DNA from: Candidatus Mcinerneyibacteriota bacterium
GTDB taxonomy: Bacteria > AUK180 > JAQVHJ01
Assembly: GCA_030630935.1 (NCBI GenBank)
Contig: DAOVMD010000068.1
Location: 1 to 10,448 of the forward strand
Length of the DNA: 10,448 nucleotides
Direction of reading: 5' to 3'
In this document: piece by piece, positions 3 through 10,183 of the stretch
How the letters are laid out: every line of letters begins with the position of its first letter
Position numbering within the stretch: position 1 is the first letter of the stretch
The notes under the pieces: model-generated
Database searches by the model: none
What the model was told of the DNA's origin: nothing
What the model saw: only the letters and a program-made list of their open reading frames with translations
Made by a program: the position numbers and the translations under genes

Positions 3-1064
3 CTTGAGAAGGAATACATTTCCGAGGTTCAGTTAAAACTAGCATTGTCGCATCAGAAGAAAACCGGTTTATTACTTGGAGCCGTTCTGGTTAAGTTAGG
101 TTATGTCACGAACCAGGAGGTCATGGTTCTTTTATCTGAACAGAGGGAGTGGTATTATAATGAAAAATCGATTAAAGAATCAATTAGTCAACAAGATAAA
201 GGATTAAATACGATTCCTATAATTCTCTTAGATATAATTACAACCGGAATTAATCCTGACACAGGTGCTGAAATTGCACAATTAGCATTACTCAGTCTTG
301 AAGGTGATATGATTATACATAAGTTCTTAACTAATATTAAAACTCGAAAACCATTAACAGGTGCATTTAAGATTCTTCATAAAGTTACACAAAAAGATCT
401 CGATACTGCCAGAAATTTTAAGGATGTCATCCCCATTCTTTCAAAATATTTTGTAAAGAAACCTATATTTGCATATAATGTTCAATCAACTATTAATTTT
501 ATTATTAAGAGCTTTGAACGAGAACGAATTCCATTTACTCATAATACTTTCTTTGATTTGATAACTCTTTGGAGAAAAATACATTCAAAAGAAGGTGTTG
601 GTTATCTTTCATTACCACAGATGTGCGCTGAATTTAATTATCCCCTTTCAAAACCTTTTAATATTGAAGACTCAATTACTGCAAGTCATTTCATCTATAA
701 AAATATTATTGAAGAATTAAAATTTAAAAAGAATGTTAAAAGCTTGAGAAAACTTGAAGCTTTTCAGGATAGAAAATTTAAATTTTTTATTCCGGACAAA
801 ACCAGCACTTACTTTTTAGTTGAGAAAAGTATTTTATTAAAACGAAAGCTGCAAGTAGAATATTTCTCACCCTGGACAAACGAAACAACTGCAAGAACAA
901 TCGATCCTTATGAACTGATTAACCAGGGAAATGAATACTATCTTATTGCATTTTGTAATCTTAGAGAAGAAGTTCGCTGGTTTCGTTTAGATAGAATTAA
1001 AAACCTTGTCATGATTGATGAACCCTTCGAAAAAAAAGATTATGATTTGTCTCAATTAACATAG
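3..1064 (+). CDS. MshEN-like / degenerate DnaQ-fold / WYL-domain protein, 5'-partial
   Basis: The frame is open from the window edge, so the gene begins outside. The TTG at 45 is the first start-like codon inside but falls within a domain; residues below count from it. Residues 8-33 match the second half of a T2SSE-N/MshEN motif (LG, then VKLGYV, then LLSEQ), a fold that binds c-di-GMP in some secretion ATPases. Residues 58-222 resemble a DEDDh exonuclease. The ExoI region reads DIITTG (D63 kept, usual Glu replaced by I65). ExoII reads YNVQST (usual Asp is T149). ExoIII keeps D209 but has P204 where the His is expected. Catalysis is therefore unlikely. Residues 258-333 form a WYL domain (VEYFSP, ARTIDPYEL, YYLIAFC, RWFRLDRI), typical of regulators that sense nucleic acids or nucleotides. 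I infer a cytoplasmic sensor or regulator; targets are unknown. No terminator is visible after the stop; repeats begin about 30 bp later. Confidence 0.75.
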   Translation, partial: LEKEYISEVQLKLALSHQKKTGLLLGAVLVKLGYVTNQEVMVLLSEQREWYYNEKSIKESISQQDKGLNTIPIILLDIITTGINPDTGAEIAQLALLSLEGDMIIHKFLTNIKTRKPLTGAFKILHKVTQKDLDTARNFKDVIPILSKYFVKKPIFAYNVQSTINFIIKSFERERIPFTHNTFFDLITLWRKIHSKEGVGYLSLPQMCAEFNYPLSKPFNIEDSITASHFIYKNIIEELKFKKNVKSLRKLEAFQDRKFKFFIPDKTSTYFLVEKSILLKRKLQVEYFSPWTNETTARTIDPYELINQGNEYYLIAFCNLREEVRWFRLDRIKNLVMIDEPFEKKDYDLSQLT

Positions 1065-1095: not shown

Positions 1096-1140
1096 TTTAA
1101 CAGGGATGTACGGGATTGACGGGATGAAAAAGAAAAGAAA
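1096..1140 (+). repeat. Module a: GGGAT 9-bp-period repeat with A-rich tail
   Basis: GGGAT recurs at 1103, 1112 and 1121, an exact 9-bp period. It is preceded by TTTAACA and followed by an A-rich run that continues to about 1170. Related copies lie at 1660-1691 and 10143-10183, and the arms of the elements at 2662-2854 and 5714-5870 are built the same way. It is intergenic and no protein is likely. Confidence 0.75.
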
Positions 1141-10142: not shown

Positions 10143-10183
10143 ATGGGATTGACGGGATTGATGGGATGAAAAAAAAAGAAAAT
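10143..10183 (+). repeat. Module a, copy with three GGGAT units
   Basis: GGGAT at 10145, 10154 and 10163, an exact 9-bp period, followed by an A-rich tail. It abuts module e exactly as at 1594-1691. Confidence 0.8.

Follow-up and report, generated by a model that had tools for sequence, protein, structure and literature searches.

Fusions of a WYL domain to a "3'->5' exoRNase" were noted by Makarova et al. in 2014 (PMC4012209), and these two-domain DnaQ/DEDDh-WYL proteins are the closest described relatives of the gene reported here. Among WYL regulators of the PafBC/DriD type, mutation of PafB R181, Y196, R204, R208, R211, and R214, singly or in groups, abolished single-stranded DNA (ssDNA) binding (PMC11804915). 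Pif1-WYL helicases (PMC9964779) likewise carry, C-terminal to a nucleic-acid enzyme fold, a WYL domain for which ssDNA binding has been proposed. In pExoDinG (PMC11981726), a DEDD exonuclease domain of the DEDDy type has been inactivated and is presumed to bind single strands; it is fused to a DinG helicase, and no WYL or MshEN domain is described. The MshEN receptor for c-di-GMP is defined by two tandem 24-residue motifs, RLGxx(LVI)2xxG(LVI)2xxxxLxxxLxxQ, separated by a 5-residue spacer. In MshE, affinity fell less than fivefold when Arg9 was changed and 36-fold with L10A, and G11I abolished binding (PMC5013675); the GSPII-A domain of PilF is an example of an MshEN-like domain without c-di-GMP binding (PMC12002112). 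Here, we report a gene of Candidatus Mcinerneyibacteriota whose product joins an MshEN-type domain, a catalytically degenerate DnaQ fold, and a WYL domain.

Gene and domain architecture

The window (the whole 10,448-nucleotide stretch analyzed) is one entire contig of a draft genome (3.16 Mb, 80% complete). The gene runs off the contig, its frame is open from the first codons on (product P0001), and identity to class relatives is 27 to 30%. Full-length relatives carry about 10 extra residues upstream, which complete the first MshEN motif; because they begin that much further upstream, the TTG at position 45, taken as the start in the first-pass annotation, is probably not the start. Residue numbers of that annotation plus 14 give the P0001 numbers used here (Table 1).

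Table 1. Features of the MshEN-DnaQ-WYL gene in the window, and loci of the f199 gene trio
Feature	Position	Strand	Details
MshEN-DnaQ(pseudo-exonuclease)-WYL gene	3..1064	+	353 aa on the contig; truncated 5' at the contig end, lacking about 10 residues
MshEN/GSPII-type domain	3..143	+	Residues 1-47; motif I truncated, motif II in full: LLGAVLVKLGYVTNQEVMVLLSEQ; NCBIfam NF053729 (c-di-GMP_motif, MshE-related), 46.9 bits over residues 1-47 (cut-off 38)
Helical linker	144..215	+	Residues 48-71; extends last MshEN helix, H37-64 (model)
DnaQ/DEDDh-fold domain, catalytically degenerate	216..731	+	Residues 72-243; Pfam RNase_T, 41.8 bits over residues 76-212 (cut-off 24); VIA-align
ExoI motif LLDIITTG	231..239	+	D77 kept; catalytic Glu replaced by I79
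ExoII	489..491	+	Catalytic Asp replaced by T163
ExoIII	654..674	+	F219 (or P218) in place of His; S224 in place of Asp (or D223 retained with one-residue shift)
Connector	732..803	+	Residues 244-267; includes helix ending FQDR, common to two-domain DnaQ-WYL relatives
WYL domain	804..1025	+	Residues 268-341; Pfam PF13280, 66.3 bits over residues 273-336 (cut-off 21.8); PDB match PafB/PafC
f199 trio loci	L176:2946-5873 (-), L147:579-3479 (+), L177-L180		

All three domains proposed from the letters alone were recovered by profile HMMs above curated cut-offs, and their scores are far above chance level. A PDB search with a profile built from the seven class members only (five three-domain copies in four of the seven genomes of the phylum in our set, plus two copies without MshEN) returned PafBC (2.6e-18), PilF (2.3e-15), the PolC exonuclease (2.8e-14), and MshE (5htl; 5.8e-9). 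The AlphaFold model of P0001 had a mean pLDDT of 87.3 and a pTM of 0.64. No helix-turn-helix (HTH) was detected, Pfam at E values up to 10 giving only WYL and RNase_T; the N-terminal (w)HTH of WYL transcription factors (PafBC, BrxR, and CapW) is absent, the N-terminal region being MshEN, and the model has no other region left to house one.

This architecture is not known to have been described; we found no account of it in the literature searched, and no relevant paper with both MshEN and WYL. WYL-exonuclease fusions are already known, so what is new here is the loss of the active site together with the addition of MshEN. As read from its sequence, the protein is a pseudo-exonuclease branch of the known DnaQ-WYL fusion, to which a putative sensory domain has been added.

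The intergenic stretch 3' of the gene contains a repeat, GGGATTGACGGGATGAAAAAG (window positions 1112-1132, 1660-1680, and 10154-10174), which occurs at 16 sites genome-wide with at most two mismatches (reversed control pattern, 0). Two pairs of imperfect inverted repeats (1803-1867/3061-3125, 65 nt, 86%; 1612-1655/3186-3229, 44 nt, 84%) flank about 1.2 kb, apparently mostly noncoding, between the gene and PEPCK. An Rfam search across the window gave no match.

Active site and predicted single-strand contacts

The middle part of the model aligned with PolC (9qpc; VIA-align Z 23.7, 2.5 Å, 194 residues), DinG (Z 20.3), and E. coli epsilon (1j53; Z 19.5, 2.3 Å, 162 residues), and the DnaQ/PolC/DinG/epsilon exonucleases together spanned Z 18 to 24; the structural match to the RNase H-like DnaQ fold, proposed for residues 58-222 in the earlier numbering, was thus found. 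Alignments also confirmed the first-pass reading of the first two motifs, in which D63 (now D77) is kept, I65 (I79) stands for the ExoI Glu, and T149 (T163) stands for the ExoII Asp. For ExoIII that reading stood in part: the His is lost but aligns to F219 (with P218, named earlier, as the alternative), and the Asp said to be kept (D209, now D223) lies one position off. The ExoIII register was taken from two MAFFT alignments and one hhalign HMM-HMM alignment, all giving F219/S224. Probably, then, four of the five DEDDh positions are replaced and only one is kept; a one-residue slip in the ExoIII loop is possible, and two catalytic residues would then be kept. Loss of catalysis, as originally proposed, stands up to comparison, the D-E-D-(H)-D set being absent once aligned and homologues not restoring the catalytic residues.

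In an active-site survey of 52 nonredundant DnaQ-WYL proteins, the catalytic set was lost in all seven class members. Among these, the first Asp is also gone (F or S) in four, and the replacements vary among paralogues. Outside the class, DEDDh was intact in 32/45 proteins, Ser stood for His in 11 (Chloroflexota), and two had DKDRD. The Chloroflexota DnaQ-WYL loci with such an intermediate active-site change (all 13: 11 plus 2) are L046, L047, L050, L051, L054, L060, L062, L063, L066, L070, L082, L088, and L097.

The WYL assignment was borne out, the Sm-like ligand-site residues being present as well. In the PafB register taken from the PDB alignment (offset 117), R298, Y313, R321, R325, R328, and R331 correspond to PafB R181, Y196, R204, R208, R211, and R214, so that all six PafB ssDNA-contact residues are present; among 28 relatives, R298, R325, and R331 never vary, and conservation of Y313 is at least 90%. 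We infer that the WYL domain binds single strands, and the earlier proposal of nucleic-acid binding is strengthened by this full set of residues, located in WYL. Unlike PafBC/DriD, the window protein has no detected HTH, has one WYL domain, and is not evidently a transcription factor; Pif1-WYL differs in being a catalytic helicase, whereas the fold here is that of an inactive exonuclease.

MshEN domain, neighbourhoods, and distribution

The MshEN part was predicted and searched separately because the full-length VIA-align list was filled by DnaQ chains. A paralogue's MshEN domain, modeled alone, lay 0.9 Å over 58 columns from 5htl, and its closest structures were c-di-GMP-bound MshE and PilF. 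All five three-domain copies exceed the NCBIfam c-di-GMP_motif cut-off, in agreement with the MshEN-like motif first read from the letters of the window copy. With MshE and PilF MshEN/GSPII (5htl and 8pdk) they have in common the four-helix fold, the motif spacing, both Gln residues (5/5 copies), and most hydrophobic positions; half of motif I of the window copy lies off the contig. They differ in their first Arg, which is replaced at each of the nine motif starts visible, and in being joined to a pseudo-exonuclease plus WYL, not to an ATPase or glycosyltransferase. The third Gly, a change of which abolished binding in MshE, is kept in 7/9 visible motifs and is Ser in motif II of the G002 and G003 copies. 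With the Arg lost throughout and the third Gly lost in two of five copies, c-di-GMP is no more than a plausible candidate for the nucleotide gating proposed in the first-pass annotation.

Each of the phylum's seven genomes encodes GGDEF cyclases, which makes the presence of c-di-GMP probable. We regard c-di-GMP as a tentative candidate for the MshEN ligand, at somewhat below an even chance: the window, G000, and G001 proteins may bind it, and binding by the G002 and G003 copies (Gly to Ser) is doubtful.

Gene neighbourhoods differ among copies and are not conserved. The window gene is followed by PEPCK, aspartyl protease, and metallophosphoesterase genes (its upstream side is off the contig). 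The G000 paralogue is codirectional with LarA-like and lactate/malate dehydrogenase-like genes, and the G001 paralogue with LarA-like, FAD oxidase, and CCG/Fe-S genes (4-bp overlap); in both genomes an amidohydrolase gene shares that direction. The G002 and G003 three-domain copies have CsgG-like and MutL-like genes nearby. In both of the latter genomes two tandem CsgG-like genes adjoin the three-domain gene (L035:9610-12406, minus strand).

Among the 126 neighbours of relatives outside the class, the commonest Pfam family was GGDEF (5 proteins at three loci in two lineages). Four of these five belong to f199, a family from another phylum in which REC-GGDEF, DnaQ-WYL (DEDDh intact), and GGDEF genes form an overlapping trio. 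Each of the four f199 genomes has REC-GGDEF next to DnaQ-WYL, and the trio is complete in the three where the locus extends far enough. The trio is convincing as an operon, and it serves as an independent pointer toward c-di-GMP; the family-wide excess of GGDEF over chance is only suggestive, and the G024 GGDEF, one gene away, may be there by chance.

The three-domain form was found in 0/379 sampled genomes outside the phylum, and the two-domain DnaQ-WYL form in 22/379, from many phyla (up to five candidates scored per genome, E up to 1e-12). In a contig scan with a single peptide pattern, the matches listed included the three-domain form in just two MAGs, both unclassified (the counterparts of G001 and G002), whereas the two-domain form came from Chloroflexota, Deltaproteobacteria/Myxococcota, and Zixibacteria. 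The three-domain form is therefore likely rare; in our set, the family was restricted to a single small bacterial class. Searches of viral contigs, phages, and plasmids gave no match over most of the query and mainly WYL-level matches, and so no sign that the gene came from a mobile element. In the tree, the seven sequences of the class group together as a clade (support, 100/99), within which the window copy groups weakly with the two MshEN-less copies (90/76). Against intact two-domain DnaQ-WYL proteins, hhalign aligned 264 columns (probability, 99.9%) spanning DnaQ, connector, and WYL; domain order and full-length homology are thus common to both, but the two-domain fusions keep DEDDh or most of it and none has MshEN.

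Selection was computed on G002 versus G003 orthologue pairs, both of relatives and neither including the window copy; dN/dS was 0.116 for the three-domain pair and 0.094 for the two-domain pair, and below 0.13 in every domain, which points to purifying selection. The gene is maintained despite loss of catalytic residues. At synonymous sites, the G002 and G003 family genes (L035/L036 and L037/L038) had diverged by 0.37 to 0.48, against 0.13 to 0.19 for neighbouring genes, a two- to threefold excess that perhaps reflects gene exchange or relaxed codon use.

Competing explanations and meaning

We consider it rather probable that the protein is a noncatalytic, single-stranded-nucleic-acid-binding sensor or adaptor. 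Between them, the WYL domain and the catalytically dead cleft of the DnaQ domain would hold a single-stranded end without degrading it. MshEN would supply a second input, either c-di-GMP or contact with a protein, and this input would alter the binding or relay it to a partner. Lacking both an HTH and a catalytic domain, the protein would have to act via a partner or by protecting or occluding nucleic acid.

The main rival, to which we give a little less than an even chance, is that MshEN is a helical docking domain without c-di-GMP binding, like the partner-binding N termini of T4P/T2SS ATPases, which would make the protein a scaffold responding only to ssDNA via WYL. The Arg and Gly losses described above, frequent loss of the turn Gly, and the presence of PilB N-domain-PilZ complexes (7lkm and 7lkn) among the matches of the MshEN model speak for it; retention of both Gln residues and most hydrophobic contacts, the scores of all five copies above the c-di-GMP_motif cut-off, and the small cost of the Arg9 change in MshE speak against it. 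A DnaQ domain that still cuts, with a nonstandard active site or altered metal use, is very improbable. Its fold is intact, and the partial replacements in Chloroflexota (DEDSD and DKDRD) indicate that the family tolerates active-site change, but the window protein probably retains just one of the five catalytic residues, and loss of the first Asp in four members, with replacements that differ between paralogues, looks like drift of an unused site and not a new conserved one.

That the gene is a functionless, decaying remnant of a DnaQ-WYL gene is very improbable. Low identity to class relatives, the lost active site, and patchy presence (4/7 genomes) would fit decay, but all copies are open frames, the WYL contact residues are conserved, MshEN was gained and retained, and dN/dS in the two orthologue pairs is 0.09 to 0.12 and low in all domains; decay is largely refuted by these dN/dS values of relatives, and we therefore rejected it. 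We give scant credence to a phage-defence or CRISPR-associated regulator resembling BrxR/CapW-type WYL proteins, although the first-pass annotation had raised a defence link. PADLOC did match the protein, with domain-level WYL and DEDDh models only; the genes nearby (for the window copy, those downstream) have metabolic or otherwise unrelated functions, no family of defence genes comes up repeatedly near this gene or near its relatives, matches among the 126 outside-class neighbours are scattered with no model matching more than three, and there is no HTH. The defence reading was rejected.

Within the sensor or adaptor reading, a bolder version, which we think unlikely, would make DnaQ-WYL proteins a c-di-GMP-linked branch of single-strand sensors, represented by the f199 trio with its intact exonuclease and by the window's class, in which MshEN was fused, the nuclease given up, and a receptor formed that couples c-di-GMP state to ssDNA. 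If true, such coupling could bear, for example, on DNA damage or on type IV pilus DNA uptake. MshEN and WYL each serve as sensor domains whose ligands, known or likely, are nucleotides or nucleic acids, and we found no report of their joining; if both ligands bind, a second messenger and single-stranded DNA would be integrated in one polypeptide. The pseudo-exonuclease is also a clear example of a DnaQ domain that has apparently changed from enzyme to binder, for which the intact two-domain relatives serve for comparison.
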